This document shows positions 3,290 to 27,984 of a stretch of DNA of 31,011 nt, in pieces; position 1 is the stretch's first letter, and the number at the start of each line of letters is the position of its first letter. A program made the position numbers and the translations under genes. The DNA is from Promethearchaeota archaeon (lineage in GTDB: Archaea; Asgardarchaeota; Lokiarchaeia; Sigynarchaeales; SOKP01), in contig JAEOTJ010000219.1 of the NCBI GenBank assembly GCA_016839905.1, positions 1-31,011 on the forward strand, in the 5' to 3' direction. The notes beneath the pieces are model-generated. The model was given only the letters and a program-made list of their open reading frames with translations, did not search any database and was not told the origin of the DNA.

Positions 3290-3421
3290 TTATTTGAGCA
3301 TATTCTCGTTCGACTCTCTTTCTTTCCTTGACTTTCTTGATTGAAGGAAATGATTGATGAGATATAGAATAGCTGAAACTAATCCAATAATTGCTGTTGC
3401 CAAATTTACGAGTTCAGACAA
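3290..3421 (-). CDS. 43-residue single-helix membrane peptide
   Basis: A short frame starting with TTG, preceded by an excellent AAAGGAGGATAT ribosome binding site, and ending at TAA. The peptide begins with SELVNLATAIIG, has one hydrophobic helix at about residues 3-26, and a strongly basic and polar tail (QSRKSRKERESNENMLK). A single helix with a charged cytoplasmic tail is the architecture of small membrane effectors or toxins, but no family is recognisable at this size. The ribosome binding site is the main evidence that it is expressed. It lies between the HNH gene on the same strand and the divergent gene starting at 3568. Confidence 0.55.
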   Translation of the reverse strand: MSELVNLATAIIGLVSAILYLINHFLQSRKSRKERESNENMLK

Positions 3422-3567
3422 TATATCCTCCTTTTGTTTTCTCTATAATTTTTTTTATTTATTAATAATTTTTAAATAGCAAAATTGATTTATTTTATTT
3501 ATTATGATTAAAGTAGTCAATATTGACTTTAATTTTTAAAAAATAATCAACAAATAACATCAAGAAC

Positions 3568-4602: not shown

Positions 4603-4665
4603 TTATAAGTGCTTTTTAAAAGATTTTCCTGATTTACTCTATAATGAAGAAAAAGAGAATGAGAA

Positions 4666-5292: not shown

Positions 5293-5334
5293 AAAATCAT
5301 AAAGAACAAGAATAATTTCTTATTTCTTTTAATA

Positions 5335-6006: not shown

Positions 6007-6009
6007 TCT

Positions 6010-7245: not shown

Positions 7246-7503
7246 AAAGGTTAGAATATATCTTTTTAATTTGAATTAATAAAGATCATTCCTGGATTTA
7301 AATGTTTTGGTAATTCCTAGATTTTTTTTGGTTTTTTAAAGGAATAATTCTGCGAGAATGAATAGTTACTATCTATGGTTGGATGTATAAATAGCTTTTT
7401 CAAGAAAATAGTTATTTCATTTTATAAATTGGAAATTAACATCATTCTATCGTCATAGAAATTATAACTTATTTAAATTAGTAAGAGAAAGAAGAGGTTT
7501 TTT

Positions 7504-8268: not shown

Positions 8269-8326
8269 TTTTCTTTACCTCCTCTATTTAAGTATAATAA
8301 TTCTTAATATCTATATCCATAATTAA

Positions 8327-9190
8327 TTAAATATTCACTTTAAACTCAGGAATTCCTAAATTTGATGTTTTTATTGTTCCATCTTCGATTATCTTTATTT
8401 TTTGGAGAGGGATTGATTCTATTTTTTGAATATTTATTAGCGAACTAAAATCAATTGCGTTTTGTGTTTTAATGAGTCTAAATACAAAATGAACCATTGG
8501 AGAGTTGGAATCTCCTTTATAATAGATTATCTCAGTACATTCAATTGAGAAATTGCTACATTTCGTAAATAACCATACTGGAAATATCGTCATTATTTTA
8601 TGATATTGTTTTCCTTTATTTTTGATCCAATCACAGATTTCATTAAAATTACTATTTTTTAATGAGTCAAATATTGTTAAACCTTTAAGAAGTGTGTCTA
8701 AGGCATTATTTAAATCCTCAGAATCATTTCTAGTCCCATAAAAAGTTACTAGCAATATCATTTCTTCCATATTGTCAAATTTCTCTGCTTGAATTTGAAT
8801 TAATCTTTCTATAGCATTTAATTTTGCATTTCCTTTTAAATCACAAGTCGAACTAACAAGAACTCCTGTGAAATCTAAATTGATTAATTGATATTTTTTA
8901 AAAAATTGCTTCAAAAACTCATCATTTAGAATATCACATATGTCTCCGTTAAAAAGAGCCTTATTATAAGAAAAATTAAGCTCCATTAGTTTTAAATCTA
9001 ATTTGGCAACATTACCCTTATCCCACTCGACAGCATGTACAAATTTAATTTTGTCTTTCCAGCATTCTATATCGAAAGCATTAACTCCTGGTAATCCAAA
9101 ATAACCTAGTTTATTCTTTTTTGCCACCATTGAAATATATTTTAAGTCAATTTTTCTGACAATTTCTTTATTTTTTGTTGAATATTTCAT
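8327..9190 (-). CDS. SAM-methyltransferase-like protein, possible TcmP relative
   Basis: A 287-residue protein. Residues 25-55 (LGYFGLPGVNAFDIECW then VHAVEWDKGN) and the later NGDICDIL and LINLDFTGVL segments resemble motifs I, II, III and IV of a Rossmann-like methyltransferase, where LINLDFTG takes the place of the LIFLDPYG seen in three-Cys-motif partner (TcmP) proteins. The C-terminal third is beta-rich and has no motif I know. Gene context supports the TcmP idea, since a radical SAM three-cysteine protein follows 58 bases downstream and such pairs are known in bacteria and phages. It starts 2 bases after the stop of the GHKL-type gene, so it is probably in the same operon. Enzymatic activity is uncertain because motif I lacks the usual glycine-rich loop. 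Confidence 0.5.
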   Translation of the reverse strand: MKYSTKNKEIVRKIDLKYISMVAKKNKLGYFGLPGVNAFDIECWKDKIKFVHAVEWDKGNVAKLDLKLMELNFSYNKALFNGDICDILNDEFLKQFFKKYQLINLDFTGVLVSSTCDLKGNAKLNAIERLIQIQAEKFDNMEEMILLVTFYGTRNDSEDLNNALDTLLKGLTIFDSLKNSNFNEICDWIKNKGKQYHKIMTIFPVWLFTKCSNFSIECTEIIYYKGDSNSPMVHFVFRLIKTQNAIDFSSLINIQKIESIPLQKIKIIEDGTIKTSNLGIPEFKVNI

Positions 9191-9192
9191 AA

Positions 9193-10329
9193 TTATGCTT
9201 TTACTTGTTCATTTAGCAATAATAATATCCTATTTACAATATTCTTTTTATCATCATCGTTTTCGATATACAAATCTACTATATCAATGAGTTCTACTAA
9301 TAAACCTGCTTCAAGATTATTAAGTTCATAAGAAGAGAAGACAAATTCTTTAAATTGTTCCCATTCGTTAATTTCTTCCTCTGATTCCTCCTCTTGTTTA
9401 TCATCTGCCTTTTTGGCTTCTACCTTTTCTGGTTCTTGTTTATCATCTGCCTTTTTGGCTTCTACCTTTTCTGGTTCTTGTTTATCATCTGTCTTTTTGA
9501 CTTCTTCCTTTTCTGGTTCTTGTTTATCATCTGCCTTTTTGACTTCTTCCTTTTCTGGTTCTTGTTTATCATCTGCCTTCTTGGTTTCTTTCTTTATTCT
9601 TTGCTCCTCTTTTAGTTTTGTTTTTTCCTCCCTATACTGTATTCTATCTAGAATACTTTTGATATAATTATCTAAAAGCGGAAAAAAACTGCTAATTTGA
9701 TTCTTGGCATCTTTTATCAAAGTATCTAAACCGTCTATTACATAATTTAAAGTTTTAATCTTTTCAAACTCATCTTCCATTGTTTTTATTGCTTTATCGA
9801 GTTTATCTTTTAATGCTTTGTAATCCTTTTTTTTCCAATTCTCTAAAAAATTCTTAACTATATCTAATTTAATTCTATAGTTCTTAGTTTTACCAGATAA
9901 TTTAGTTGCTATATTTTCGATAGATGCTTTTACTCTATTATTATTTTCTAAAACTTTCTTCCAAGAAGTTTTTTCATGGCGACGGTTTTCTGTATATTTT
10001 AGAGTCTCCTCAATCCACTTCTTTATTTCTTCCCTTATAGTTTTAGTAAGTCCCTCATTTACAAAATTCTCCCTCTTGGGATCAATCATAATTTTTTCAT
10101 TGAATAGGTAAATTTCACCCCAGATTTGACCAACTGGTTGGTGTGATATTTTTACATCAAACATTCCATATACTCTATTATAAGGTATTACTTCAACATT
10201 GTATAATCGTATCTGAATCCCTTGAATTGGTTTAGTCTTAAAAACACCAGTAGCTTCAATTGGTTCCTTAAGATTCTTGCCCTTCTTAAGTCTTGAGCCC
10301 CTGATTACTGCCCAACCAATTCCAACCAA
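9193..10329 (-). CDS. C-terminal part of a split GHKL ATPase, with acidic/lysine repeats
   Basis: This 378-residue frame appears to be the second half of the protein encoded at 10405-11280. Both lie in the same reading frame, separated by one TAA and 25 sense codons. Its start (VGIGWAVIRGSR, GIQIRLYNV, then GEIYLFNEKIMIDPKRENF) looks like the S5-fold middle domain that follows the ATPase domain in Hsp90- and MORC-like proteins, which would make little sense alone. A helical coiled-coil region follows (about 100-235), then five copies of a 14-residue unit (KADDKQEPEKEEVK type), and a leucine-rich helical end. The listed start is a TTG with no good ribosome binding site. It may be translated by reinitiation, by readthrough, or be the broken end of a pseudogene. 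Confidence 0.65.
   Translation of the reverse strand: MVGIGWAVIRGSRLKKGKNLKEPIEATGVFKTKPIQGIQIRLYNVEVIPYNRVYGMFDVKISHQPVGQIWGEIYLFNEKIMIDPKRENFVNEGLTKTIREEIKKWIEETLKYTENRRHEKTSWKKVLENNNRVKASIENIATKLSGKTKNYRIKLDIVKNFLENWKKKDYKALKDKLDKAIKTMEDEFEKIKTLNYVIDGLDTLIKDAKNQISSFFPLLDNYIKSILDRIQYREEKTKLKEEQRIKKETKKADDKQEPEKEEVKKADDKQEPEKEEVKKTDDKQEPEKVEAKKADDKQEPEKVEAKKADDKQEEESEEEINEWEQFKEFVFSSYELNNLEAGLLVELIDIVDLYIENDDDKKNIVNRILLLLNEQVKA
9394..9603 (-). repeat. Five tandem 42-bp repeats inside a coding region
   Basis: A 42-base unit begins at 9394, 9436, 9478, 9520 and 9562, with few differences between copies. It keeps the reading frame and encodes the acidic and lysine-rich unit KKADDKQEPEKEEV. In-frame repeats of this kind expand and contract by slippage, so copy number may vary between strains. 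The encoded stretch is probably a disordered linker. Confidence 0.9.
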
Positions 10330-10404
10330 TTCCTCTATCCCTTCTTCATTATTAACTTTAAATTCCTTAAATCTCCATGATTCTTTTGAATCTAATGGTT
10401 CCTC

Positions 10405-11280
10405 TTATACTCCTCCTTTGGGGTATGGACGAAATATAGGAACTCCATTAAATTTAATGGTTACATTATTGTATCGACAAGAAAAAGACATTCCATTCTG
10501 TGCCATCTTGTCTTCTAGAACTTCTTTTAACCAATTAAGAAAATCATTAGTTCCATCTTGAATTTCCAATTCATTCAATTTATCTGGTATGAATTTCGTA
10601 ATTGTTAAGCTCATTTCTGGGTCATAATCAACAGGGACTATTCTACTCAATTGTTCAATAAAATTTTGTCTTTTTGAATTATTTTTGAAGATTTTCTTTA
10701 TTTTATCATCTAAATCGTGTAGAGTCACAATTGTAAAATGTTTATTCTTATATTTTATATCTTTAGTTTGTTTTTTTTCGTATCTAGTTGTTTTGAATAA
10801 ACTTGTAAACCTTGCATCTTTTGAATATAATTTTTCCATCCATTCACCCATAGGGATTAAAGCTTCGACCAATAAATCCGAACCTTCTGTAGTTGTTTGA
10901 ATTTCTATCGTTTTACATATTTTACCTCCTGAAAAAAAACCAATTCCAAAATATCCTATAGGAGGATGGCGTTTAATCATACTTTCATCCTTTTGTATAC
11001 TCATCATTAAAGATAAAGCTTTTTCCATTTCATCTAGGTCTTTTATTCCAACTCCGTCATCACGTATGATTATTCGATCATAAGTAGGCTTAGTACAGTC
11101 AATTTGTATCTTATTTGCTGACGCATCTACTGCATTTGAAACATATTCTCTAATCACTTGAAACGGTTCGGAGTATAGTCTATTCACAAAAGTTTCTAAA
11201 AATCCTACACCAATTTCGGTAATATAATCCTCTTCAAAACCGTCTTTTGTTTTACTCATATTTTTAATTCCCTTATCCAT
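10405..11280 (-). CDS. GHKL (Hsp90/MORC-like) ATPase, N-terminal part
   Basis: A 291-residue GHKL ATPase module. The N box is REYVSNAVDA (N49, D52), the G1 box is DDGVGI at 74-79 and the G2 region is GYFGIGFFSGG near 108-118. These residues bind ATP and magnesium in Hsp90, gyrase B, MutL and MORC proteins. The frame ends at TAA in FRPYPKGGV, but the same frame continues without other stops into the next gene with domain sequence expected of the full protein, so a nonsense mutation or deliberate truncation is likely. Prokaryotic MORC-like GHKL ATPases are known from restriction-modification-like operons, which fits the nearby cytosine methyltransferase. The ATG follows 28 bases after the small gene at 11309-11806 in a likely operon. 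Confidence 0.85.
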   Translation of the reverse strand: MDKGIKNMSKTKDGFEEDYITEIGVGFLETFVNRLYSEPFQVIREYVSNAVDASANKIQIDCTKPTYDRIIIRDDGVGIKDLDEMEKALSLMMSIQKDESMIKRHPPIGYFGIGFFSGGKICKTIEIQTTTEGSDLLVEALIPMGEWMEKLYSKDARFTSLFKTTRYEKKQTKDIKYKNKHFTIVTLHDLDDKIKKIFKNNSKRQNFIEQLSRIVPVDYDPEMSLTITKFIPDKLNELEIQDGTNDFLNWLKEVLEDKMAQNGMSFSCRYNNVTIKFNGVPIFRPYPKGGV

Positions 11281-12380: not shown

Positions 12381-12660
12381 TTTTACAACCTTATTTTTTT
12401 TTATATTTAATATTATTTTAATGTTTTTTAATTAATTTTAGTTTTACCCTATTATAAATGCAACAGATAATTGAGGGTAAAAAAATTATTTGTCCCAACA
12501 TAGCGTCCTTTTAAACTCTTTTCTTTTTTTTGTGTATAATAAAAATTAATATGACATAAAATTAAAGGAATATATGCGAGCAATTAGAAATTCTCATCAT
12601 GGATATAATCATTGTTCAAATAATATCAATGAATTAATGAATCAGAGTGGTGAAATGTTT

Positions 12661-12951
12661 TTATTTCTTTTTTAATTTAATGTCTATACCTAATTCATCG
12701 CCAGCTTTAAGATCAAACCTTTTTATTATATTACTTTTAACACTTGCTCCTTTTGAAGTTCCTCCAATTCTAATTACCTTCCTCGTCATAAATTCAGAAA
12801 CTTCTGTAGGTTCTTTTCCTTTTTTGATTATTTTAAATATTTCTATTTCAATAGAATTACCAAAGTCAAGACCCATTTCTTTGTGGATAGCAGGTACTAT
12901 TGAAAATCTCAAAGAAGAACTTTGTGCGGTTAATCTGACGGTATCCTTCAA
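12661..12951 (-). CDS. AbrB/SpoVT-like DNA-binding protein (copy 1)
   Basis: A 96-residue protein with two swapped-hairpin-like repeats: SIVPAIHKEMGLDFGNSIEIEI at about residues 17-38 and KVIRIGGTSKGASVKSNIIKRFDLKAGDELGIDI toward the end. The pattern of basic strand, turn, then hydrophobic beta strand with a GD or GN turn is that of AbrB/MazE-type transcription factors, here as a tandem duplication in one chain. It is about half identical to the protein at 16244-16540, and a third broken copy lies at 18105-18185. The three copies share the RKxIxIGG(T/G)SKG core. It may regulate the neighbouring secreted-protein or zinc-finger genes, which the two intact copies flank, but that is inference. 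Confidence 0.8.
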   Translation of the reverse strand: MKDTVRLTAQSSSLRFSIVPAIHKEMGLDFGNSIEIEIFKIIKKGKEPTEVSEFMTRKVIRIGGTSKGASVKSNIIKRFDLKAGDELGIDIKLKKK

Positions 12952-14164: not shown

Positions 14165-16033
14165 CTATCCCTTATGTTTTCGAATTATATGACTCTTTAA
14201 ATCGCATTTTCTTTTTGCCTGATACTCACAATGAGGACATTTATGCCATGTAACACCAATATTATGCCTATTGGCTAGGTGTTGCTTTAATGTTGATGTT
14301 GTTTTCGCTTTATAATCACATTCAGGACACTTATGCCAAGTTACTCCTATATAATGTTTATTTGATAAATGTATTGTTAAATGATTTGTTAATTTTGCTT
14401 TATATTCACAATAAGAACATTCATGCCAAACCACACCAATATCATGTTTACATGCTAAATGAGATTTTATCCTTTCTGAATGTTTAGTTTTGAAATCACA
14501 ATGGGGACATTCGTGCCAAATAACATTAATTTCATGAATATTTCTAAGATGTCTTTGTAGACTACCATTTCTTTTACTTTCGAAAGAACAATGAGAACAT
14601 CTAAATATTTTAACACCAATATCATGTTTATCGGCTAAGTGTTGCGTTATGTTATTCTTTCTAATACTTTTGTAATCACATTGAGGACACTCATACCATT
14701 TGACATTAATATGATGCTTACCCGCTAAATGAGATTTATATCTTTGTTTATTTTTGGTTTGAAATGTACAATGAGGACATTTAAAAGTATTTTTTCCAAT
14801 ATTATGTTTTCTTTCTAAATGTGAGATCAAGCTATTCTTATGTTTAGTTTCAAATGTACAATGGGGACACTTATGTAATATAACACCAATATCATGAATA
14901 TTTGCTAAATGATGTTTTAGACTTGTTTGGTGTTTTGTTTTAAATTCACAATAAGAACATTCATGCCACACAACCCCAATATCATGATTCACAGCTAGAT
15001 GTCGAGTCAAATACTCTTCAATCTTTGCCTTGTAATCACAATGAGGACATTCATGCCATTCTATTTCTTTTTCATGTATGACTTTTATATGACGGTTCAA
15101 ACTTCCCCTGATCTTTGTTTGAAATTCACAATGAGGACATTTATACCATTTTACATCTATATTGTGTTTATTAGCTAAATGAGATTTTAATCCTTGTCTT
15201 TGTTTAGATTTAAAGGTACAATATGGACATTTATGCCAAGTAACCTTAATCTCATGTTTGATTGCCAAATGTTTTTTAATATCTTCTTTTGATTTAGGTT
15301 TATATTCACAAAATGGACAATTATTAGCAATATCATCAATTAAATGTTTATTCTTTTGATGTCTTTTTAAATGTGATTTGTTATGTGTTTTATAATCACA
15401 TATAGAGCAGTGATAAATTTTTCTCTTGATTTCATGAATATCAGCTAAATGAACAAAATAATCACTCCTTCTATTTGTTTTATAATCACAAAATGGACAT
15501 TCATATATGTATAATCCTAATGAGACATGATCAGTAGCCTTATGTTTTTTTAAATCATATTTATACTTAGTCTTAAAATTACAGAGAGGACATTCATACC
15601 AACTAACATTCATATCATGTTTAAGAGATAAATGACGATCTAAACTAGATTTTCTATATGTATGATAATTACATAGAGAACACTTGTATAATTTACCAAG
15701 GTGATGAATATCCGCTAAATGTAGAAAAGTTTGATATGGTTTTTGTCCAAGATAATCACAATCAGCAATGGGACATTTCTTAATATTTTCCCAAAACTTC
15801 AATCTGAATTCATTATCCCTTTTAGCTATTTCTTTTATTGATAATCCAGTTAAATTGTAGAGAGCTTTAGAAAGACCAATATCTTTAGAAAGAGCTCCTA
15901 CATAAACGAATAAAGTTTTAAATTTAACCTTATTGGCTTTTGCTAATTTAACGATCCATTGTCCTATACTGTCTTTTGTTTCGGGAAGAGGATGAATTGG
16001 GAGTGGATTGATTGCATATTTCAAAATAATCAA
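14165..16033 (-). CDS. TniQ-like protein with 18 tandem C2H2 zinc fingers (second selector)
   Basis: A 622-residue protein. Residues 1-85 form a TniQ/TnsD-like N-lobe (PLPIHPLPETKDSIGQWI, then KLAKAN and LTGLSIKEI), clearly homologous to the N-lobe of the selector at 20390-22156. From C87 there are 18 zinc fingers. Finger 1 has a C-x4-C spacing; the others follow C-x2-C-x12-H-x4-H with a 30-residue period and an H-(D/N)-I-(G/N)-V-x-W-type linker instead of TGEKP. The helix positions -1, 2, 3 and 6 vary from finger to finger, for example RSSR, YYDK, RSDV and NSHR in fingers 2 to 5, while the framework is nearly fixed, as expected for DNA readers. Start is a TTG at 16033; TTG at 16024 is also possible. 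It is likely a target selector for the TnsABC machinery encoded 4 kb away. Confidence 0.88.
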   Translation of the reverse strand: MIILKYAINPLPIHPLPETKDSIGQWIVKLAKANKVKFKTLFVYVGALSKDIGLSKALYNLTGLSIKEIAKRDNEFRLKFWENIKKCPIADCDYLGQKPYQTFLHLADIHHLGKLYKCSLCNYHTYRKSSLDRHLSLKHDMNVSWYECPLCNFKTKYKYDLKKHKATDHVSLGLYIYECPFCDYKTNRRSDYFVHLADIHEIKRKIYHCSICDYKTHNKSHLKRHQKNKHLIDDIANNCPFCEYKPKSKEDIKKHLAIKHEIKVTWHKCPYCTFKSKQRQGLKSHLANKHNIDVKWYKCPHCEFQTKIRGSLNRHIKVIHEKEIEWHECPHCDYKAKIEEYLTRHLAVNHDIGVVWHECSYCEFKTKHQTSLKHHLANIHDIGVILHKCPHCTFETKHKNSLISHLERKHNIGKNTFKCPHCTFQTKNKQRYKSHLAGKHHINVKWYECPQCDYKSIRKNNITQHLADKHDIGVKIFRCSHCSFESKRNGSLQRHLRNIHEINVIWHECPHCDFKTKHSERIKSHLACKHDIGVVWHECSYCEYKAKLTNHLTIHLSNKHYIGVTWHKCPECDYKAKTTSTLKQHLANRHNIGVTWHKCPHCEYQAKRKCDLKSHIIRKHKG

Positions 16034-16243: not shown

Positions 16244-16540
16244 CTACTTACTTTCCAACTTTACATCCACTCCGACCATATCCCCTGCTTTAAGTTCAAA
16301 TTGTTTAACGATATTATTCTTTATAGTTACTCCTTTCGAGCCCCCTCCAATTGTTATAATTTTTCGGGACATAAAGATTGAAATCGGTCTTGGATCTTTT
16401 CCTTTTACAATTTCATATATTTCAATTTCAGCTAGATCGCCTAAATCTATTCCTAATTTCGATAAAAGATCAGGATTAATAGTAAAACCAATTGAACGAC
16501 CTATAGAGGTTATATTTACTGTATCTTTCATTGTTTTCAC
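16244..16540 (-). CDS. AbrB/SpoVT-like DNA-binding protein (copy 2)
   Basis: A 98-residue protein with the same two-hairpin layout as copy 1: GFTINPDLLSKLGIDLGDLAEIEI near residues 18-42 and KIITIGGGSKGVTIKNNIVKQFELKAGDMVGVDV toward the end. It is probably a dimeric or pseudo-dimeric transcription factor. Its stop is about 210 bases from the start of the second zinc-finger selector on the same strand, so it could control or be co-transcribed with that gene. Between them sits a perfect odd palindrome AAACTATTATAGTTT at 16171-16185, which may be an operator or a terminator-like element. Confidence 0.82.
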   Translation of the reverse strand: MKTMKDTVNITSIGRSIGFTINPDLLSKLGIDLGDLAEIEIYEIVKGKDPRPISIFMSRKIITIGGGSKGVTIKNNIVKQFELKAGDMVGVDVKLESK

Positions 16541-18104: not shown

Positions 18105-18185
18105 AGGATATTATAATATTACACTTAACATTTGCTTCTTTTGAAGTTCCTCCAATTCTAATCACCTTCATTGTTATAAATTTAA
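18105..18185 (-). pseudogene. Remnant of a third AbrB-like gene
   Basis: Read on the minus strand this stretch encodes MKVIRIGGTSKEANVKCNII, which matches the second hairpin of the AbrB copy at 12661-12951 (KVIRIGGTSKGASVKSNII), and the DNA is nearly identical over about 35 bases around AAGTTCCTCCAATTCTAAT. There is no first hairpin and the frame stops soon after. It therefore looks like a broken copy left by a duplication or insertion, lying between the HD and thymidylate synthase genes. Confidence 0.75.
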
Positions 18186-18298: not shown

Positions 18299-19273
18299 AT
18301 GGCATCAGTTATTTATATTGAAGCGGAAGATGTTGGAACCGCATGGTTAGAGGCTCTTAAGAGAGTGTTGGAGGAGGGAGATGAGATTTCCACTGAATAT
18401 GATAAAGTAAGTGATATCCCTTCAAAAGATAGTACTGTGTTAATTAAAATTAAATCTCCACTTAGCAATCCTATTAGAAGTAGGAGGGGGAAAGAAAAAA
18501 AGATACTAAAAGTTAGATCAAATTTTGGAAATTCTTATGAAGTATATGGATCTCTACCAGACATTTTCCTTATTGGCTCAATTCAAAGTGGTTATATTGA
18601 AGAAGTTTTAGATGGAGTGAATGATCACTATTTATGGGAATCGTCTCATAGCTTTCCATATTCATATCATGATAGAATCTATAATTATGCTCCGTTTTCT
18701 TTAGAGGATGTGGCAAAAAAAGATTATTTGGTAGATTTAATTGAGAATGAGAAAGTTAAAGAGCATGAAAAATTGAAGCATGCTAAAAAGGTTTATAGCT
18801 CTGAGGATAAAGAAGTATGGAGATTGGAGAATGGAATCGAAATAGATTTAAATAAAGAAATAAGCGAGCAAGTTGGGATTGATAAAATTAGTTTAAGTCT
18901 CCTTAATTTACCAAGAATTAATCAAATCAATTATGTAATTGAAAAGTTAAAAGAGAACCCTAATACTAGAAGAGCCCAAGCAATAACTTGGAGACCATAC
19001 ATTGATCCATATTCTGATGACCCACCTTGTTTACAGAGGCTATACTTCAGGATAAAAGATGAGAAATTGATTTTGCAAACTACTTGGAGGAGTAGAGATT
19101 TATTTAAGGCATGGGAACCGAATGTAAATGGAATGATAAAAATACAAGAATTAGTTGCTAAAGAATTAGGACTAGGGTTAGGCGAATATATTGATTTCAG
19201 CAATTCTTTACATATTTATGGGAAAGACATAAAAGATGTAAAAGAATTGTTAACCTCAGTGAAGGAATTGTAA
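18299..19273 (+). CDS. thyA: Thymidylate synthase, ThyA family (archaeal type)
   Basis: A 324-residue protein with the folate-dependent thymidylate synthase core in its second half: NTRRAQAITWRP (phosphate-binding arginines near 224-225), catalytic C244 in PPCLQR, TTWRSRDLFKAWEPNVNGM (R264 to N277) and SLHIY with H305 and Y307. It methylates dUMP to dTMP using methylene-tetrahydrofolate. The asparagine that picks uracil over cytosine is present, so dCMP hydroxymethylation is less likely. The N-terminal 200 residues are less conserved, and the protein is longer than the bacterial ThyA of about 264 residues. The ATG has a GATGAG ribosome binding site. Its place 1 kb from the transposition genes suggests it is cargo or captured viral-type nucleotide metabolism rather than a chromosomal operon gene. 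Confidence 0.88.
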   Translation: MASVIYIEAEDVGTAWLEALKRVLEEGDEISTEYDKVSDIPSKDSTVLIKIKSPLSNPIRSRRGKEKKILKVRSNFGNSYEVYGSLPDIFLIGSIQSGYIEEVLDGVNDHYLWESSHSFPYSYHDRIYNYAPFSLEDVAKKDYLVDLIENEKVKEHEKLKHAKKVYSSEDKEVWRLENGIEIDLNKEISEQVGIDKISLSLLNLPRINQINYVIEKLKENPNTRRAQAITWRPYIDPYSDDPPCLQRLYFRIKDEKLILQTTWRSRDLFKAWEPNVNGMIKIQELVAKELGLGLGEYIDFSNSLHIYGKDIKDVKELLTSVKEL

Positions 19274-19304
19274 TTTTTACTTCTAAAACTATTTTAAATC
19301 TATT

Positions 19305-20354
19305 TTATCTAAATTCTCTAAATAAATTCAATGCTGATGGAGTGGTTAGGTATAACTTCTCGGGAATTGGCCCCATAGTCCCCATATATCTTGCAATAAA
19401 AGAGTCCCGTTTCTTTTTGGAAATTTGAGACCATTTATTAGGAGATACAAATAAATTTCCACAATGAACAACAATTATCTGTGAAAAAATATCCTCTAAT
19501 TGTGATTTATTAAATTTAGCTAATTGATCAAATGTTTTCTTATAACTTTTTAGTTGGTCTGAAAAACATGAGAATATTATATTCGTTTTATCTCCTTGTG
19601 GAAACACATTCAGAAAAATTGATGGTAGTTCAATTGAATAGTCATAAGGATTATATATCTGATTTCCATCAAAATCATAATAGATAGAAAAAACTGAATT
19701 TACAGCTAATAATGAAGCTCCATCTAACTCAAATCTTTTTGAATGAATTACATCATAATCTCTGTCTTTTTCGGATTTGATAAACTCTTTAGAAAAACGA
19801 TCTATTTTTTTTTTCATATCATCTAGATCAGTTTTATCTTTAAGATTCTTAGAATTATAGAGCATCTTTTGTACATCATTTTTAGCCAATTTCGCCATTT
19901 CTTTAGAATGACAGACAGCATATTTACACATTGCATATTCAAAAGCACAGGCTCTATATGCAAACAGAAAATTTTGTTTTTTGGAATTTACATAATCTTT
20001 ATCTTCTATGTCTGAGAAAACCCAATTATCATGATTGCTACAAAAGCCAAAAAAAGTAGATGCATCACCAATACCCACCAAGCCAAAATCTTTATCAAAA
20101 AAAGATTTTCTAACATCGAAACATTGAACTTCTCCTGAATTGGATATCGACTTTAGAATTTTATTTTTTTGTATTGAATGAGCTTTAATACTATTAGGAG
20201 CAGAGCAAGAACTTTTATCTGGGAAAAGACAACCTTTAAATCGGCATTTTTTATTAACTTGAGATATCAGTTTACTTAATTTCACTTTTTCTTCAAAAAT
20301 CTTACTATTCTGTTTTCCTTTCTTTTTTTGTTGTAGTTCTTTTGGCAATTTCAT
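19305..20354 (-). CDS. HNH-like treble-clef nuclease family protein
   Basis: A 349-residue protein with an N-terminal zinc-binding nuclease-like core: C37, C42, C50, then KAHSIQ with H59, a long insert, and FFGFCSNHD with C105 and H108 followed by WVFSDIE. This cysteine and AHSIQ/GFCxxHD pattern is one I associate with a widespread uncharacterised bacterial family found in defence islands, probably an HNH-type DNase. The C-terminal 230 residues are helical and then mixed, with no other motif. It converges with the thymidylate synthase gene and is transcribed in the same direction as the transposition operon; it starts 35 bases downstream of the zinc-finger gene's stop and could be cotranscribed. 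Its cleavage activity is inferred, not shown. Confidence 0.65.
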   Translation of the reverse strand: MKLPKELQQKKKGKQNSKIFEEKVKLSKLISQVNKKCRFKGCLFPDKSSCSAPNSIKAHSIQKNKILKSISNSGEVQCFDVRKSFFDKDFGLVGIGDASTFFGFCSNHDNWVFSDIEDKDYVNSKKQNFLFAYRACAFEYAMCKYAVCHSKEMAKLAKNDVQKMLYNSKNLKDKTDLDDMKKKIDRFSKEFIKSEKDRDYDVIHSKRFELDGASLLAVNSVFSIYYDFDGNQIYNPYDYSIELPSIFLNVFPQGDKTNIIFSCFSDQLKSYKKTFDQLAKFNKSQLEDIFSQIIVVHCGNLFVSPNKWSQISKKKRDSFIARYMGTMGPIPEKLYLTTPSALNLFREFR

Positions 20355-20389
20355 AATTATATATTAATTAATAGTCTTTATAATCTTCA

Positions 20390-22156
20390 TTATTCGCTTT
20401 CATGAATTTTTATAGTATGTCTCTTTAAACTGTTTGAATATTTGGTTTTGAAAGAACAGTAAGAACATTCATATACTTCTGCATTCTCATCGTGTTTAAG
20501 CAGATGCCTTTTAAGGTTTCCTTTAGATTTTGATTTATAGCTACAATATTGGCAATTGTGCCATTTACTGTTTTTATTATGTTTATTTCTAATGTGATTT
20601 CCTAAGCTGTCTTTATTTTTGGTTTTGAATTCACATTGAGGGCATGAATGTAATTCTGTTTTAGTATCATGTTTATTCCTGACATGCCTATTTAGATGAG
20701 ATTTATTTTTCGTTTTATAATCACAATGAGGACATTCATGCCAAATAACTCCTTTATTATGTTTCTCAGCTAAATGTTGTTTTAAATTACATCTCCTGGT
20801 AGTTTTATAATCGCAATCAGGACACTCATACCATTTACAGTTAATTTTATAAGTTTCCTTAATATGTTTAGTTAAATTCGATTTTATTTTAGTTTCATAT
20901 TCACAGTGAGGACACTTATGAGATATAGCATTAACATCATGTTTATTCGCTAAATGACTTTTCAAGCTTTCTTTATGCTTAGTTTTAAACTCGCAGTGAG
21001 GGCAATTATGGAATTTAACTCTAAATTCATGTATATTTCTTATATGCCTATTTAAATTTGATTCAGCTTTAGTTTTAAACTCACAGTGAGGGCACTCATA
21101 CAAAATAGCTCCAATATTATGAGTAAAAGCTAGATGAAATTTTAATGAATTCTTAGATTTTGCTTTATAATCACAGTGAGGACATTTATACCATTTCACA
21201 CCAATATTATGCCTACTTGCTAAGTGTTCTTTAAGATTTTTCTTTCTGGTTGTCCTATATCCACATTCAGAACACTCATACCATTTACAATCGATTTTAT
21301 GAGTTTCACTTACGTGTTTTGATAAATTTGATTTTGATTTAGTCTTAAACTCACAGTGAGAGCATTTATACCACTTAACTCCAATATCATGCTTGAATTT
21401 CAAATGAGATATTAATCCTTGATTGTTTTTAGCACGAAAGGAACAATAAGGACAATCATACCATTTTACATTAATATTATGAATATTTGACAAATGGCTT
21501 TTCAAACTACTTGGATGCTTAGTTTTATAATTACATTGAGGACAATTATGCCATTTCACATTAATATCATGTTTTTGGGCTAAATGTTGGTTTAGATTGG
21601 CTCGTGCTTTTGCTGTAAATTCACACAATGGGCACTGATAAAATTTAACTCCAATATCATGAGTAAATGCTAAATGTTCTTTTAGTGCGTTTTTAGTTTT
21701 TGCTTGATAATTACATTGAGGACAATCATACCATTTCACATTAATATCATGTTTATTTGCCATATGTTTAGTTAAATTGCTTAAAGATTTTGCCTTATAT
21801 TCACAATGAGGACATTCCTCCCATTGAGTTCCTATATTATGCTTCATTGCAAGATGTCTATAAATTTTATGTCTATAATCATTTGCATAATCACAATTCT
21901 TAATTGGACACTCGCCTTTAAATTCCCAAAATTTTTCCTTAAACTCATTCTTCATATTTAGTATTTCTTTTTTTGAAACACCCGTTAGGATATTTAATCC
22001 TTTAATTAATCCAACATCTTTAAAAATTGAAATTAAATAAATAAACATATCTCTAAATTTCGTATTATTAGCCTTTGATAGTTCTTCAATCCATTTACCA
22101 ATCGAACTCTTAGTATCAGGTAATGGATGAATTGGTATTGGTTTATAGTTGAGCAT
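20390..22156 (-). CDS. TniQ-like protein with 17 tandem C2H2 zinc fingers (operon selector)
   Basis: A 588-residue protein, third gene of the transposition operon. Residues 5-65 carry a TniQ/TnsD-like N-lobe (PIPIHPLPDTKSSIGKWI, ELSKAN, LTGVSKKEI). From C83 there are 17 fingers; finger 1 is C-x4-C, the rest C-x2-C-x12-H-x3-4-H with a 30-residue period. Helix positions -1, 2, 3 and 6 differ between fingers (SSNK, TNAE, AANQ, HSSS, NQGS, SSNK, RKNE and so on), while framework residues are almost constant. Finger 12 has tyrosine for the last histidine. In Tn7, TnsD binds the target and recruits TnsC; here fingers replace its usual DNA-binding part. The ATG lies 14 bases inside tnsC after a strong GAGGAGGAGGATC ribosome binding site. 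A zinc-finger-directed selector is an inference from the fusion and operon. Confidence 0.92.
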   Translation of the reverse strand: MLNYKPIPIHPLPDTKSSIGKWIEELSKANNTKFRDMFIYLISIFKDVGLIKGLNILTGVSKKEILNMKNEFKEKFWEFKGECPIKNCDYANDYRHKIYRHLAMKHNIGTQWEECPHCEYKAKSLSNLTKHMANKHDINVKWYDCPQCNYQAKTKNALKEHLAFTHDIGVKFYQCPLCEFTAKARANLNQHLAQKHDINVKWHNCPQCNYKTKHPSSLKSHLSNIHNINVKWYDCPYCSFRAKNNQGLISHLKFKHDIGVKWYKCSHCEFKTKSKSNLSKHVSETHKIDCKWYECSECGYRTTRKKNLKEHLASRHNIGVKWYKCPHCDYKAKSKNSLKFHLAFTHNIGAILYECPHCEFKTKAESNLNRHIRNIHEFRVKFHNCPHCEFKTKHKESLKSHLANKHDVNAISHKCPHCEYETKIKSNLTKHIKETYKINCKWYECPDCDYKTTRRCNLKQHLAEKHNKGVIWHECPHCDYKTKNKSHLNRHVRNKHDTKTELHSCPQCEFKTKNKDSLGNHIRNKHNKNSKWHNCQYCSYKSKSKGNLKRHLLKHDENAEVYECSYCSFKTKYSNSLKRHTIKIHESE

Positions 22157-23063
22157 TTAATAGATCCTCCTCCTCTATCCTTTTATGGTTATTCCTTAAT
22201 GCTATAACTGAAGCTGTCTTTATTAAAATAGCTATATTTCGGCGGTTCGTCATTCCAAGATATGGTTTGGGAAATTCCACTTTATTCCAAATTATCTCAG
22301 CAAAATCATCTGAACCTAAATCTGAGGGTTCTGGAAAAGGTTGGAATTTTTCATATCCATCAAGGAATTTAATATATTCATCATCATCAAATGTTAAAAA
22401 CTTTAAATGCGAGTAAGGTCTAACTGGACAGCGATTTGATAACTGCATATCTGTATCAAGGATATCTTTCGTTTCTGGCATACCTACGGGAATAAAGGGA
22501 ACTTGTGATGCTAACATTGTCCTTTTTAGCATATTTAAGATTGCTCTCTGGTTTCTTCCTTTTGTGTGTTGAAATTCATCAATAATGAATAGTTTTGTTC
22601 CTGTTTTTCTTAACATATCTATGAAGACATCTTCTAACTCAGAAATTTTAATATTTGACATTTTTAAGGCTTGCTCCTTAGCTAAAGGATGTCCATAAGC
22701 GGATAATAGCGAAGTATATAATCCCTTTAGGCCGGTTATTGAATCTTTTAGTAAGCAATATGCTACAGGATATTTTTCATATGTTGGATTATGTTGACGA
22801 GAATGAGTTCTTCTTAGTTCATTTATAATACTAGATTTTCCAAGCCCAGTATCGCCTATTATAGATAATCCTTCCATATCATGAATCAAATCCTCTGTAT
22901 CATCATAAACAAATGTTTGTTCATATATCCAATTTAATTTATTCAAACATTGAATAGCTTTTGGATGATAAACGAAATGATCCATTCTTACCCATCTAAT
23001 CTTAGCTTGAATATTTTTTTCAAGTATGGGTATTGCTGTTTTATCTAAATGTTTATAGGGCAT
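22143..23063 (-). CDS. tnsC: TnsC/TniB-type AAA+ transposition regulator
   Basis: A 306-residue AAA+ ATPase. Walker A is GDTGLGKSS at 70-78, Walker B is KLFIIDEFQH at 157-166, the sensor-1 stretch is PFIPVGMPET, and SNRCPVRPYSHLKF carries the arginine-finger-like basic residues. This matches the TnsC and TniB family, which uses ATP to bridge the target selector and the transposase and provides target immunity. The ATG overlaps the stop of the transposase gene by one base (TAATG), and its own 3' end overlaps the zinc-finger gene by 14 bases, so all three are translated as one unit. The length is close to TniB (about 300) and shorter than Tn7 TnsC (555). Confidence 0.95.
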   Translation of the reverse strand: MPYKHLDKTAIPILEKNIQAKIRWVRMDHFVYHPKAIQCLNKLNWIYEQTFVYDDTEDLIHDMEGLSIIGDTGLGKSSIINELRRTHSRQHNPTYEKYPVAYCLLKDSITGLKGLYTSLLSAYGHPLAKEQALKMSNIKISELEDVFIDMLRKTGTKLFIIDEFQHTKGRNQRAILNMLKRTMLASQVPFIPVGMPETKDILDTDMQLSNRCPVRPYSHLKFLTFDDDEYIKFLDGYEKFQPFPEPSDLGSDDFAEIIWNKVEFPKPYLGMTNRRNIAILIKTASVIALRNNHKRIEEEDLLNAQL

Positions 23064-25834
23064 TAGTTCTCATCCTCCTTTTCATTTTCTTCATCATAAA
23101 ATATAGATAAGGTCATATGTTTTTTAGCATCCTCCCAATTTGTTGCATAGGGTATAATTTCTTTAGGATCATCTTGTTCTGGTCTTATTTCTGAGATTTT
23201 TGGATTTTGCACTACTTTGATTTGTTCGAGGTCTTTATCAGTATATGCGGGAATCGGCTTTTTATCCATTTGTGCTAATTTCATTCGTTTATTGATTTCT
23301 CTCTTACCTTCTTTAGTTTTTTTTAATTTTTCCCATTCGTTAATCTCTTTTTTACTTTGTTCTGCTTTCACAATCATTTTCTTGCTCATATTGTCTAAGA
23401 TAGCTGATCTCTCAATATTATTATATTTTTTTGTTGTACCTAATTCTTTTTCTAATGATTTGAGATCATTTAATGAAATAGGAAAGGGCTTATATCCTGG
23501 TTTCTTTCCCAATCCTCTTAGTAGAAATTCTAATCCACGGTCATCTTTCGCATAATTATAAGCTTCTAATATTTCTATTTCACCTGTATTTGGATTCTTC
23601 ATATATGCATGTCTAATATCCCAATGTGAAATTTTAAACTCATACTTCTGTTTATCTATTAGTATTTTATTCTTCCTTGCTTTTCTGAGCCATTTACTTG
23701 AATAGTAAATATTTTCATATCGAAAACCTCTTTCTGAAAGAGATAGCTCAACTTCTTTTTTAGCTTCATAGTCATATATTTCATATTCATCGATATCAAT
23801 AATTCTTAAGGCTCCACCTAATGGATGATATTTATCCCCTCTTAATCCATCAACCCATAATTCATTAGGAGAATGATTTTGTTTAGCCCTAATATCAGCA
23901 GAATATTTTATGACAAAGTAGTTGAAGAGCCATTCTCGAAAATCCTCCAAAGTTATCCCTCTTTTTTTACAATCTTCTTTAGCATCATAACCAGGAGGTT
24001 TTTTAAATTTGGGGCGTGAAACAGATCGTCTAGTCTTTTGTATTGGAAAAACCCTACCAGGAAGTTTTTTATTTCGTATTTCATCATTAATAGTATCCCA
24101 AATACTCTCAACAAATCCTCCATATTCGGGTGTTTTTACTGGACGAAATTCTAAGGTGATATTATGTTTCATACAAAATTTTTTTACCTCGTTTGCTCGA
24201 AAATCCATCCCATTATCAACTTGAAGCATGGAAGGAAATCCCGCACAAGGGAGTTCATATTGACTTGGATCAAAACCTGTTTTTATTTTATCTGATTCAA
24301 AAAATTTCCAATCAGGCAAAAGATTTTTTGGAATTAACCCTCTTACAATTGTGTGCAAAACAGTTTCTCGTGATGGATTATTGAAAGAGAGAAAATAGCT
24401 CCATATTGATCTAGAATATACATCAATACCTAATGTTAAATGAGGTCTACCAAATGGTTGTTTTGTCAGAGGGTCTCTTAACCATATATCTAGTGGCGTA
24501 TGATCCATTTGAATGACGCATCCAGGATATCTTCCCTCTCGGTAGGTACTTTTAAATCCCCGTGTAATGAAGGATTGCGTTTTAGGTCTATATTTTCCAT
24601 GAACTTCAGACGCAGGTAAGGCATTCACTCTATTATATACGGTTTTTCGAGAAGCTGGTTTTAAGCCCTTGATTTTGCATTCATTTTCAAATTCTTCAAT
24701 AGCTCCCTTAACTTGAGTCCATTTTCCATGATTAAAATCATTTAAAACCTTTTGTAGTATTTCCTCAACTCTAGGATCTAAATGAGATTTATTATGCTTT
24801 CTTGACCAATTTGGATAAAGAGCCTCCTCACCACTCTTCTTATATAAAAGATAATACTTGTATGTTCGATGAAATGGTTTATCATTTTCTTTACAATATT
24901 TTTCAACATCACTTTTTTTACCATCTTTTCCAAATTTATCGAATAAGGGCTTTATTAATTCAATTCTTTCCTGAAATTTATGCTCATCATTTTCTCGTCT
25001 AATAATAGTTTTATTGTCTAACTCTGGTTTTACTAAAGTAGTCAATATTGGTGTTTGAGGATTTTCGGGTAATTCATAAATAGGAATTAGTGGGATTATT
25101 TCATTTGATGATACTTCAGTTTCTTCTAAGGGTTTGCTCCAATCAATAAAAGTATTTTGATAGTAAATGTTGAATTTTAATAAAGAGATGATTTCTTCAA
25201 TTTCTAAGGGAACAAATGGTTTTAATAATTTTGGGAGCATTTGAAATTTCTTTGGACTTTCTAAAAATTTCTCTAAGTGTGAAAAAAATGAACCAATTTT
25301 TTTGTTAATATTCATTGGGGAGTAATGCTTCGCACCTATAATTAAATCTTTAATGATATCTAATCGTAAACAATTAATCTTAAGTTCTGTAATAACTTGA
25401 TATGTCCATCCCCTTTTTTTGCAATATTCTTGAATGACTTTTATTCTCGTACTCCAATTTTCATCTTCAATTAATTTACTATATTCTTGTTCCGATTTAA
25501 TTTCATATAAAAATTCTCTACCATTTGTAAAATATGCCCAACAATCAGGATAAATTAATTCTTTCCTGCCCTTGACCGTAGTGTAAGGAATAGCAACAGG
25601 TTGAGGCTGAAGATCCACGCAATTTGGATCATGGTCAAGTAGAATAAGAAAATCTCTCTCTAATACCGATTCATAATCTAAAACAAGATTATTTAAATGA
25701 GGTTTCAATGATGGCAAAAAACCTCTATTGCTTCGATATTTTAAAGGTATTTTCCGTGCTTGGGTTGGACGATAGTAAGTATATTTCTCGTTTTTATATA
25801 TTACCTCAGTATGAACAAATTTATGGGTTTTCAA
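23063..25834 (-). CDS. tnsAB: TnsA-TnsB fusion transposase
   Basis: A 923-residue fusion. Residues 40-170 are a TnsA-type endonuclease: E55 and E59 in LDYESVLERDFL, D97 in YPDCWAYF, and E111 and K113 in YEIKSEQE. TnsA cuts the 5' strands at the transposon ends. Residues 280-410 are helical and DNA-binding, and 430-600 form the DDE integrase core with D444 (IQMDHTPLD), D540 (LQVDNGMDF) and E576 (FVESIWD), 35 residues apart at the D-E step. TnsB-like activity joins the 3' ends to the target. The C-terminal third is beta-rich then helical, as in TnsB. A natural TnsA-TnsB fusion occurs in several Tn7-like groups. The start is TTG at 25834, preceded by AAAGTGAT; upstream sequence holds the transposon right end. 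Confidence 0.95.
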   Translation of the reverse strand: MKTHKFVHTEVIYKNEKYTYYRPTQARKIPLKYRSNRGFLPSLKPHLNNLVLDYESVLERDFLILLDHDPNCVDLQPQPVAIPYTTVKGRKELIYPDCWAYFTNGREFLYEIKSEQEYSKLIEDENWSTRIKVIQEYCKKRGWTYQVITELKINCLRLDIIKDLIIGAKHYSPMNINKKIGSFFSHLEKFLESPKKFQMLPKLLKPFVPLEIEEIISLLKFNIYYQNTFIDWSKPLEETEVSSNEIIPLIPIYELPENPQTPILTTLVKPELDNKTIIRRENDEHKFQERIELIKPLFDKFGKDGKKSDVEKYCKENDKPFHRTYKYYLLYKKSGEEALYPNWSRKHNKSHLDPRVEEILQKVLNDFNHGKWTQVKGAIEEFENECKIKGLKPASRKTVYNRVNALPASEVHGKYRPKTQSFITRGFKSTYREGRYPGCVIQMDHTPLDIWLRDPLTKQPFGRPHLTLGIDVYSRSIWSYFLSFNNPSRETVLHTIVRGLIPKNLLPDWKFFESDKIKTGFDPSQYELPCAGFPSMLQVDNGMDFRANEVKKFCMKHNITLEFRPVKTPEYGGFVESIWDTINDEIRNKKLPGRVFPIQKTRRSVSRPKFKKPPGYDAKEDCKKRGITLEDFREWLFNYFVIKYSADIRAKQNHSPNELWVDGLRGDKYHPLGGALRIIDIDEYEIYDYEAKKEVELSLSERGFRYENIYYSSKWLRKARKNKILIDKQKYEFKISHWDIRHAYMKNPNTGEIEILEAYNYAKDDRGLEFLLRGLGKKPGYKPFPISLNDLKSLEKELGTTKKYNNIERSAILDNMSKKMIVKAEQSKKEINEWEKLKKTKEGKREINKRMKLAQMDKKPIPAYTDKDLEQIKVVQNPKISEIRPEQDDPKEIIPYATNWEDAKKHMTLSIFYDEENEKEDEN

Positions 25835-25952
25835 GTTAAATCACTTTGATATTAATATTCTTTTAATTTTTTATAATCTTTTTATAAATTATTTTTAATT
25901 TTTTATAATCTGATATATAGATAGATACATTCATATTTAAATGTCTAGAGAG
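25835..25952. promoter_or_regulatory. Promoter region of the transposition operon
   Basis: These 118 bases separate the transposase start from the first 17-bp repeat. A near-repeat of TTTTTTATAATCT occurs twice (25866-25879 and 25897-25910), which on the minus strand gives AGATTATAAAAA, a TATA-like box about 40 and 70 bases from the start codon. TGTCTAGAGAG at 25942 is inside this stretch next to the first repeat. The operon is thus expressed from a promoter adjacent to the transposon end, where TnsB binding could repress it. Confidence 0.45.
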
Positions 25953-26123
25953 TGGCGAAAAAAAATACAATTGTCAAAAATTTGCAAAAAAAAGTTCAAA
26001 ATGGTTTAGGTTGTAGAAAAAACTACATTATTCTAATAAGAAAATTTTAAGTTGTTATAAAAAGTTCATAAAACATTATATTATCTTAAAGACTTGATTT
26101 AAATAGTTGCAGAAAATAGTTCA
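25953..26123 (+). repeat. Five 17-bp TnsB-binding-site-like repeats at the right end
   Basis: Five 17-base units match TTGCAGAAAAAAGTTCA: TGGCGAAAAAAAATACA (25953-25969), TTGCAAAAAAAAGTTCA (25982-25998), TTGTAGAAAAAACTACA (26011-26027), TTGTTATAAAAAGTTCA (26052-26068) and TTGCAGAAAATAGTTCA (26107-26123). Start-to-start spacing is 29, 29, 41 and 55 bases, all in the same orientation. Multiple direct binding sites for TnsB near each end are the hallmark of Tn7-like elements, and the last unit resembles the ACAAAATAGTT core of the Tn7 site. Their place upstream of tnsAB marks the right end. Matching sites at a left end were not found in this window. Confidence 0.85.
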
Positions 26124-26202
26124 GTAACCAATTTACCCAAAGAGATTATTGAGATGATGAGATGATCTTTTTTTAAAATCTGACTTTTTAGACTAAGATC
26201 TC
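26124..26202. other. Probable right boundary and target-site flank
   Basis: The transposon should end a few bases past the last 17-bp repeat. GTAACCA ends at 26130 and gives 7 bases between the site and the end, similar to the 8 bases in Tn7, with terminal TGG on the inward strand; TTACCCA ending at 26139 is an alternative. From there to the stop codon of the longin-like gene at 26203 is about 70 bases. This is the spot where a TnsD-like selector would direct insertion if it recognised the 3' end of that gene. The exact boundary is not proven. Confidence 0.45.
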
Positions 26203-27117
26203 TTAAGCATTCATATATTTTATCCAAGTAATATTATCTTTTTTGATAAGTTCTTGAACAGAAGAAATTGTATCAAGATAGGGTAAATCTTTATAACTTT
26301 CTTTTAAGTTTGTTACTAAATCATGAGCTTGAGCTATTTCATTAGCTTGTATTAATTTATCATATTGAGCATCTATCCATGATGCAAATTCTTCAATTTG
26401 GGAAATTGTATGCTCCTTTTGTAATTTTTTAGCAATATTATTTATAAATTCTTGTTGTTCTTTCATATAAGAGTGTAGATCATATTGAATTGCTATTCTA
26501 ATTATTTGTTCCGCACACGTAATTGCATCATCAAATGCGCCATTTAATTTATATTGTTGAGCATCTGCTTTTAAATCACTTATTCGAGAAATAGCTTCTA
26601 ATTTTTTTATATTTTTTTCAGGATCTGTATTCTTATCAGATTTTTTTAGTTTTTTTACTTCCTTTTTTGGTTCTTTAGCTTCTTTTTTTGTTTCTTTTAC
26701 ATCTGCGATTGGTTCTTTTACTTCCTTTTCTATTTTTTCTATTAATAAATGCTTAATTAAAGTCTGAAATTCTTTAAAATAACCGATTTCTCCATCCCAA
26801 CTCTTTAAATCTATGATATCGTATTTTTTAAAAAAAAAAGTTTGTATTTTTTGTAAATCCCTTTCTACTTTTTTATCCTTTTTTTTTTTATCCGAACTTG
26901 CAACAAATAAATAACCCTTCCTTTTGATAAGAGTAAATCTTTTATTTATCAGATCGAAATTTGTCAAACCTCCATCAGAAACTTTTTCTGCAAATGTATT
27001 TAAGGCACTCATTAGCCCTCCAAGTAGCTGTGCGTCCAGTTCGGGTTCAAGATTATGGTTAAATAATACAATCCCGCTTTCTTTAATGATCCAAATGTCT
27101 TGTATGACTCTTTCCAC
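26203..27117 (-). CDS. Longin/roadblock-like protein with helical C-terminus
   Basis: A 304-residue protein. Residues 1-125 resemble a longin or roadblock-like fold (WIIKESGIVLFNHNL, LLGGLMSALNTFAEKV, LIKRKGYLFVASS, and IQTFFFKKYDIIDLKSW), like the protein at 28035-28904. This class binds small GTPases and is expanded in Asgard archaea. A lysine and glutamate-rich linker follows (130-165), then helices resembling tetratricopeptide-type repeats (DAQQYKLNGAFDDAITCAEQII). It is probably a GTPase partner or scaffold. Its 3' end lies about 70 bases from the transposon's right end, which makes it the likely anchor gene for site-specific insertion. The nearest GTPase is encoded 2 kb upstream on the same strand. 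Confidence 0.75.
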   Translation of the reverse strand: MERVIQDIWIIKESGIVLFNHNLEPELDAQLLGGLMSALNTFAEKVSDGGLTNFDLINKRFTLIKRKGYLFVASSDKKKKDKKVERDLQKIQTFFFKKYDIIDLKSWDGEIGYFKEFQTLIKHLLIEKIEKEVKEPIADVKETKKEAKEPKKEVKKLKKSDKNTDPEKNIKKLEAISRISDLKADAQQYKLNGAFDDAITCAEQIIRIAIQYDLHSYMKEQQEFINNIAKKLQKEHTISQIEEFASWIDAQYDKLIQANEIAQAHDLVTNLKESYKDLPYLDTISSVQELIKKDNITWIKYMNA

Positions 27118-27213: not shown

Positions 27214-27984
27214 TTATTTAAAAATTTTAGGAAAAATAGTTATGGTGTTTTCTTTTATTTGGTTTTCTAATTCCTCTTTAGGAATTCCTTTTAATTTAGA
27301 TATTGAAATTAAAACATCTTTAATCATTGAGGGTGTGCCTACTTTTCCCTTATATTCAACAGGTCCATCACTTTCTAAAAGAAGATGATCTATATTTACC
27401 ATCATTACTGTTTTTCTCACTGCTGGAGAGTAACTAATTGCAGGCGTAATTGAAAAAAAATAACCTCTATCTATTCCTAATTTTAAGAATTCTTCAGGAC
27501 CAGAATACCAGTGAATATTAACATTAGGAATCTTATAAGATGGTAAAATATCAAATACTAATTTTTCTGCTCCTTTAGTATGTAAATTAATAGGTAATAC
27601 TAATTCTTGGGCTAAAGCGAGCATTTTTTCAAAAACATCTTTCTGTAAAGGATATAATTCTTTTTCCTTGATGAAATGATGATCTAAGCCGATCTCACCA
27701 ATGGCACATACCTTATTTTTATTATTTCGAATAAGTTCTAATATAGAATCTAAGTCTTCTTCAATATTTGGATTAATTTTTACTTCTTCTGGATGAATGC
27801 CTAAAGCAGCGTATATCATTTCAAACTGATTACTTAATATGAGGTTTCTGTTAAGACTAGTAGCACTCATACTAACAGATAGAACTTTTTCCACTCCTGC
27901 TTGTTTTGCCTCATTTAGAATTTCTTCAAGAATTAAATAAAGATTTGCATGGCAATGAATATCAATTAACATTTTAACTTCCAT
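27214..27984 (-). CDS. tatD: TatD-family metal-dependent hydrolase/DNase
   Basis: A 256-residue TatD-family protein with the expected metal-site motifs in order: DIHCHAN at about 7-13, GEIGLDHH near 97, LHTKGA near 137, NIHWYSG near 158 and LLLESDGP near 206. TatD enzymes are metal-dependent DNases or phosphoesterases with a TIM-barrel fold and are found in all domains. The start MEVKMLID may be two to four residues too long, since M5 is also possible. The gene lies between the two longin-like genes on the same strand, spaced 96 and 50 bases away, so they are probably cotranscribed chromosomal genes. Confidence 0.93.
   Translation of the reverse strand: MEVKMLIDIHCHANLYLILEEILNEAKQAGVEKVLSVSMSATSLNRNLILSNQFEMIYAALGIHPEEVKINPNIEEDLDSILELIRNNKNKVCAIGEIGLDHHFIKEKELYPLQKDVFEKMLALAQELVLPINLHTKGAEKLVFDILPSYKIPNVNIHWYSGPEEFLKLGIDRGYFFSITPAISYSPAVRKTVMMVNIDHLLLESDGPVEYKGKVGTPSMIKDVLISISKLKGIPKEELENQIKENTITIFPKIFK

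Follow-up and report, generated by a model that had tools for sequence, protein, structure and literature searches.

How does a Tn7-like transposon choose its insertion site when the gene that follows tnsC encodes a long array of zinc fingers? This question is raised by a contig of a Promethearchaeota archaeon (JAEOTJ010000219.1 of assembly GCA_016839905.1), whose positions 1 to 31,011, all of the stretch that was analysed, are termed the window here. An earlier note on this DNA described a fused TnsA-TnsB transposase, a TniB-type ATPase and a third gene for a TniQ-like, zinc-finger target selector. We show here that these genes lie in an element of about 6.86 kb that is inserted in the last codons of a thymidylate-synthase-like (thyA-like) gene and splits it. 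We consider it quite probable that this is a compact archaeal Tn7-like transposon with a TnsD-like homing selector in which a polydactyl C2H2 array is joined to a TniQ N-lobe. For a Tn7-like transposon, a selector that retains the TniQ-like N-lobe alone and joins it to a C2H2 array was not found described in the literature searched. The earlier reading is supported; guidance to a target is what we infer.

The operon and its proposed selector

The three genes were all found in place on the minus strand, and they overlap as had been claimed: the stop codon of tnsAB and the start codon of tnsC share the motif TAATG, and the stop of tnsC and the start of the selector gene overlap over 14 bases.

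23063..25834, minus strand: fused TnsA-TnsB transposase (TnsAB), 923 residues, from Pfam and PDB matches and motifs
22143..23063, minus strand: TnsC/TniB AAA+ ATPase, 306 residues, from PF05621 and a family profile against the PDB
20390..22156, minus strand: proposed target selector, 588 residues, a TniQ-like N-lobe (about the first 82 residues) and 17 C2H2 fingers
19305..20354, minus strand: protein of 349 residues, the only other long open reading frame kept as a gene in the element

TnsAB matches the TnsA-like N terminus model PF08722 over the cut-off (5.9e-11) and the integrase core model PF00665 (rve) under its curated cut-off (1.3e-4; 22.6 against 32.6 bits). Of eight PDB sequences that were matched, one is annotated as an integrase and the other seven as TnsAB or TnsB, each of these seven with an E-value of 5.6e-10 or better. 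Motifs that we take to be TnsA- and DDE-type catalytic motifs are present, and the protein is predicted to be a TnsA-like endonuclease fused to a DDE transposase of the TnsB group. TnsC matches the TniB model PF05621 at 2.1e-27, its family profile retrieves VchTnsC from the PDB at 7.9e-21, and it carries what are presumably Walker-type motifs. Besides the window's own protein, 42 TnsC relatives were found, two named ones among them being from Promethearchaeota. Matches of the TniB family occur in 1702 bacterial plasmid records, with a top-listed identity of 29%, and viral contigs and phage records gave none. The 349-residue protein has no Pfam match at E up to 0.1, no PADLOC match at E up to 0.01 and one weak NCBIfam match far below the cut-off. 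No CRISPR effector was recognised by Pfam or NCBIfam in the four genes of the element, in a scan that did not include a CRISPR-array finder.

The 17 fingers of the selector were confirmed with a search pattern in which C-x2-4-C is accepted and the last residue may be H or Y; 1000 shuffled versions of the protein contained on average 0.18 fingers and at most two. The period of the array is about 30 residues. The claimed TniQ-like N-lobe stands in profile comparison, where hhalign aligns it with TniQ (Prob 92, E 5e-7; 14% identity over 63 columns) with a score higher than that of all 200 shuffles, and reversal and row-drop controls also ran in its support. It is missed by the Pfam TniQ model: PF06527 is not listed for the selector at a limit of E 10, although few matches weaker than about 0.1 pass the HMMER filters, and NCBIfam gives no TniQ row for the N-lobe either. 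The fold matches of the N-lobe are weak, and the best 60 of 73 matches of its profile to full-length solved structures were finger proteins and chance matches with no TniQ among them. Of 31 candidates in a protein search with residues 1-95, none matched at an E-value of 1 or better; this search carries little weight because the window's own protein was not recovered. By profile, the N-terminal helical domain of the selector is thus related to TniQ. Neither the zinc domain nor the second helical domain of TniQ was seen by sequence or Pfam; C2H2 fingers occupy their place.

A search with full-length selectors yielded 59 matches among 7990 candidates scored. Two (P0046 and P0049) clearly carry the N-lobe, and the rest have no N-lobe match better than E 0.13. 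Several of these, P0044, P0047 and P0050 among them, share a similar finger scaffold and lack the N-lobe; from a reading of 12 of the 59 sequences, such finger proteins have a C-terminal part resembling a VSR/EDxHD-type nuclease.

Element borders and the target gene

The element was delimited by the gene that it interrupts.

about 19269..26131, with an uncertainty of a few bases at either border, no strand assigned: Tn7-like transposon of about 6.86 kb, from the split thyA-like gene
18299..19273, plus strand: body of the thymidylate-synthase-like target gene, lacking its C-terminal codons (PF00303, 1.7e-16; C-terminus compared with 17 relatives)
26133..26165, plus strand: detached C-terminal codons of the thyA-like gene (LPKEIIEMMR, stop)
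19267..19286, minus strand: putative left-end site with the terminus TGTAA, in opposite orientation to the right-end sites
25952..26127, plus strand: right-end array of five direct putative TnsB sites (25952, 25981, 26010, 26051 and 26106)

A C-terminus profile made from 17 relatives, which in its placing covers the first nine codons, has its window-wide best score at 26133 (16.89, where the second best of 32,759 stop-free frames reaches 12.75). The C-terminal codons of the thyA-like gene are found at 26133-26165, and the element thus spans about 19269-26131. The terminus TGTAA provides the stop codon of the truncated gene. A target duplication was looked for as a 5-bp repeat, and none was convincing at the two borders.

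The neighbourhood of the target gene in relatives agrees with a disruption in the window. The TatD gene of the window (27214-27984) has up to 73% identity to genes of the group that contains the Sigynarchaeum and Lokiarchaeota genomes, Sigynarchaeum being classed within Promethearchaeati. A search of 62 related genomes gave a TatD match in 53. Of 20 of these loci, 12 have TatD and the thyA-like gene as immediate neighbours in convergent orientation and five have two to five genes between them; the thyA-like gene was not found in the other three (L094, L100 and L110, the last at a contig end). In the window the two genes are 7.9 kb apart. Between the detached codons and TatD lies a longin-type gene (26203-27117), which has a sub-threshold Pfam match.

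The sites at the ends, five in the window and seven (12631-12846) in a related element of Candidatus Sigynarchaeum springense (L001), were chosen by eye, and the two arrays were therefore tested against each other. With a matrix built from the seven L001 sites, the window site at 26010 ranks first (16.5; next 11.3) and that at 26051 twelfth; the remaining three fall below the best 15 rows. Conversely, the matrix of the window sites places sites of the L001 array first, second and fourth in L025, the rest being outside the best 15. The left-end site is the 15th row in the two-strand match list; no more than 0.026% of minus-strand positions reach its score, and the site is located at the independently found break. 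No second site array was found elsewhere in the window. A distance of 11 bases separates the L001 array from the stop codon of a gene that we assign as sugar-isomerase-like, so that the related element also abuts a gene 3' end. Its far end was not found: no inverted repeats are shared by the two sides of the L001 operon, and a comparison with a relative did not reveal it.

Related loci and variation of the fingers

The operon recurs in Asgard genomes. Two further loci, found in genome contigs by TnsC alignment, share the gene order, which is kept in all three readable loci of the TnsC clade. In L001, tnsAB and tnsC are followed by an N-lobe gene with nine fingers and then by one with two. In L002 (Lokiarchaeota CR_4) tnsAB is followed by a tnsC whose match is broken into two parts and by an N-lobe gene in which the pattern counts seven fingers; the contig ends after this gene and its sequence holds masked bases. 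In neither locus is the finger gene absent in favour of a separate canonical TniQ, which the earlier note had named as a finding that would speak against its reading. Such an arrangement, canonical TniQ without a finger array, does occur in other operons (L019, L020 and L021).

Among the 227 genomes of the group, 12 have TnsC matches at E 0.001. In six (G001, G002, G161, G085, G092 and G091) the match lies in a tnsB operon; the other six are weak (E 4.6e-5 or worse), and two of them read as ABC-type ATPases and one as another P-loop protein. N-lobe matches occur in six genomes, including fragments in G095 and G117 and N-lobe genes in G111 and G035, which have no TnsC match. PF06527 is found in eight, seven of them over the cut-off. 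At L047 (6148-7967) in G111, two N-lobe genes lie on opposite strands beside a helicase-like open reading frame; one has 10 fingers, the other a single finger-like motif and an N-terminus that we take to be SWIM-like.

Finger arrays are also joined to canonical TniQ. In L017 (G161), tnsC is followed by a gene whose product has a canonical TniQ domain, then 13 C2H2 fingers and then another TniQ domain; this gene runs off the contig, and the tnsB open reading frame as called has no TnsA match. In L125 (G037) a protein with a Pfam-recognised TniQ and six C2H2 fingers adjoins a TnsAB gene, and no tnsC was identified on the 10.6-kb contig. A TnsC tree of 29 rows, unrooted, with long branches and an unsettled bootstrap, unites 21 database proteins with the window, G001 and G002 in one set (100/100), these 21 being half of the 42 relatives that were themselves found by likeness to the window. 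The proteins of G161, G085, G092 and G091 stand apart from this set. Because the tree parts the window set from G161, it is likely that finger arrays were recruited twice. At L018 (6073-7623) the third gene of a TnsAB-TniB operon encodes a repeat-like protein, neither TniQ nor zinc-finger by Pfam, and perhaps another kind of selector.

The fingers vary where they would contact DNA. In 61 fingers from five selectors, positions -1, +2, +3 and +6 rank first in variability among the 495 possible quadruples, and all 70 fingers of seven proteins are distinct, a set that leaves out the two-finger protein of L001. This is the pattern that DNA reading with diverging specificity would give. The earlier note had proposed a comparison of finger-predicted targets with insertion sites; this gave no enrichment at the flanks. 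With a crude table of recognition rules from the literature, used as a finger code for Sel1, Sel2 and L001a, the insertion flank was not singled out for Sel1 or L001a, nor the window flank for Sel2, in what is a weak test. We lean, by a modest margin of belief, towards an Asgard Tn7-like family that uses exchangeable polydactyl C2H2 arrays, placed on TniQ or on the N-lobe, as protein-coded address readers that were recruited at least twice and re-addressed at their contact residues. Such a family would be the counterpart in nature of integration guided by zinc fingers.

Targeting, known systems and neighbouring genes

Tn7 itself inserts at a gene 3' end, as does the element of the window, and the steps proposed here for targeting, recruitment and insertion follow what is known of Tn7. 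The fingers would read the target DNA and bind it close to a chromosomal gene's 3' end, in this case that of the thymidylate-synthase-like gene. The N-lobe, the part in common with TniQ, would contact and recruit TnsC, which would act as a bridge, and TnsAB would cut and join the ends, so that the element is inserted beside the bound site. The element may still move.

Other roles for the finger protein have to be weighed against this. It is unlikely that it acts as an accessory selector or regulator while a canonical TniQ recruits TnsC in trans. Short TniQs that seem to need partners, as well as TnsF, have been described in the available text of PMC10293859, and the TniQ look-up in the window's genome covers the window alone, which leaves room for a TniQ elsewhere. 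However, the finger protein itself has a TniQ-like N-lobe, and PF06527 has no match in G001 or G002, which share the operon order, although both records are metagenome assemblies. We give an equally small chance to an array whose ligand is RNA, protein or the ends of the element itself, or that represses the operon, with insertion at gene ends caused otherwise. The crude finger code yields no target match and the arrays are known here from sequence alone; against this, the variation between fingers falls at DNA-contact positions, and two elements whose arrays differ have similar putative end sites. That the likeness of the N-lobe to TniQ is convergent and the finger gene an unrelated cargo of the operon is hardly credible: the low identity and the weak fold matches would allow it, but the profile score exceeds every shuffle, the selector gene overlaps tnsC and its position is the same at each of the three readable loci. 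The homing selector with a TniQ-like N-lobe and a finger array remains the reading that we prefer.

Among known systems, TnsD of Tn7 and the TniQ/TnsD proteins in general resemble the selector in their TniQ-like N-terminal domain and in the position of their gene beside tnsC. The TniQ/TnsD core consists of a helical domain, a zinc finger, a connector and a second helical domain, and the C-termini of TnsD contain multiple helix-turn-helix (HTH) domains, according to the accessible part of PMC10293859; in the selector, a C2H2 array follows the first helical domain instead. The same source describes TnsF of Tn6022 as a separate TniQ partner with zinc fingers in its first 199 residues and tyrosine-recombinase-like domains. 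Both are zinc-finger selectors of the Tn7 family, but here the array is fused to a TniQ-like head and makes up most of the protein. TnsC and TnsAB of type I-F3 CRISPR-associated transposons (Tn6677 and relatives) are among the best sequence matches with solved structures; in contrast to these, the element has no recognised CRISPR effector and has one other gene, that of the 349-residue protein. The TniB proteins of bacterial plasmids belong to the same TniB family, whereas here TnsA is fused to TnsB and canonical TniQ is replaced. P0044, P0047 and the others with a nuclease-like C-terminal domain share the finger scaffold and its period of about 30 residues but have no N-lobe match and are not known from a transposase context. 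Zinc fingers have reportedly been engineered to retarget the Sleeping Beauty transposon; fingers steer the transposon there as well, by human design, whereas the case in the window is natural and Tn7-like.

The earlier note knew of no described system that uses a polydactyl zinc-finger array, and none was found in the literature searched. The Tn7 selectors surveyed in the portion of PMC10293859 at hand are HTH-type TnsD, TnsE, CRISPR and TnsF with zinc fingers, and the term C2H2 does not occur in what was available of its main text. In the retrieved text of PMC11406308, "zinc finger" occurs once, in the abbreviation list, and that of PMC8813620, on Asgard mobile elements, contains neither Tn7, TniB, TniQ nor TnsC. 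Both TniQ and C2H2 occur in the available text of PMC7043111 and PMC7240848, the terms being unconnected there, and in the part of PMC10761935 consulted TniQ itself is called a zinc-finger protein. No description of TniQ joined to a C2H2 array was found in this search, which subscription papers and preprints fall outside. In a 2021 survey (PMC8649781), as far as its available text goes, homologues of Tn7-like transposases were reported to be absent from all archaea. The present element places Tn7-like transposons in Asgard archaea. If the reading is true, Tn7-like elements would have one more mode of site choice, with a modular finger array for an address, beside HTH-type TnsD, TnsE, TnsF and CRISPR. 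The address might be readable from the array's own sequence, and the idea is therefore directly testable.

Outside the element, the window contains a second N-lobe gene and a group of defence-like genes (2003-11280).

14165..16033, minus strand: second N-lobe gene, 18 C2H2 fingers
2003-2977: protein matching HNH-type effector models
5335-6006: HhH-GPD protein matching a nicking-endonuclease model
6010-7245: C5 cytosine methylase
10405-11280: HATPase

The 18-finger gene lies in a stretch that does not have the gene order of relatives, and no further tnsABC gene was recognised among the window's open reading frames examined, those between 1 and 18 kb being covered in part. It is possibly a trans-acting selector or the rest of another element. 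Three related stretches (12661-12951, 16244-16540 and 18111-18182) look presumably AbrB-like; Pfam gave no match on 12664-12951. The third of them lies immediately upstream of the thyA-like gene and seems to be a remnant.
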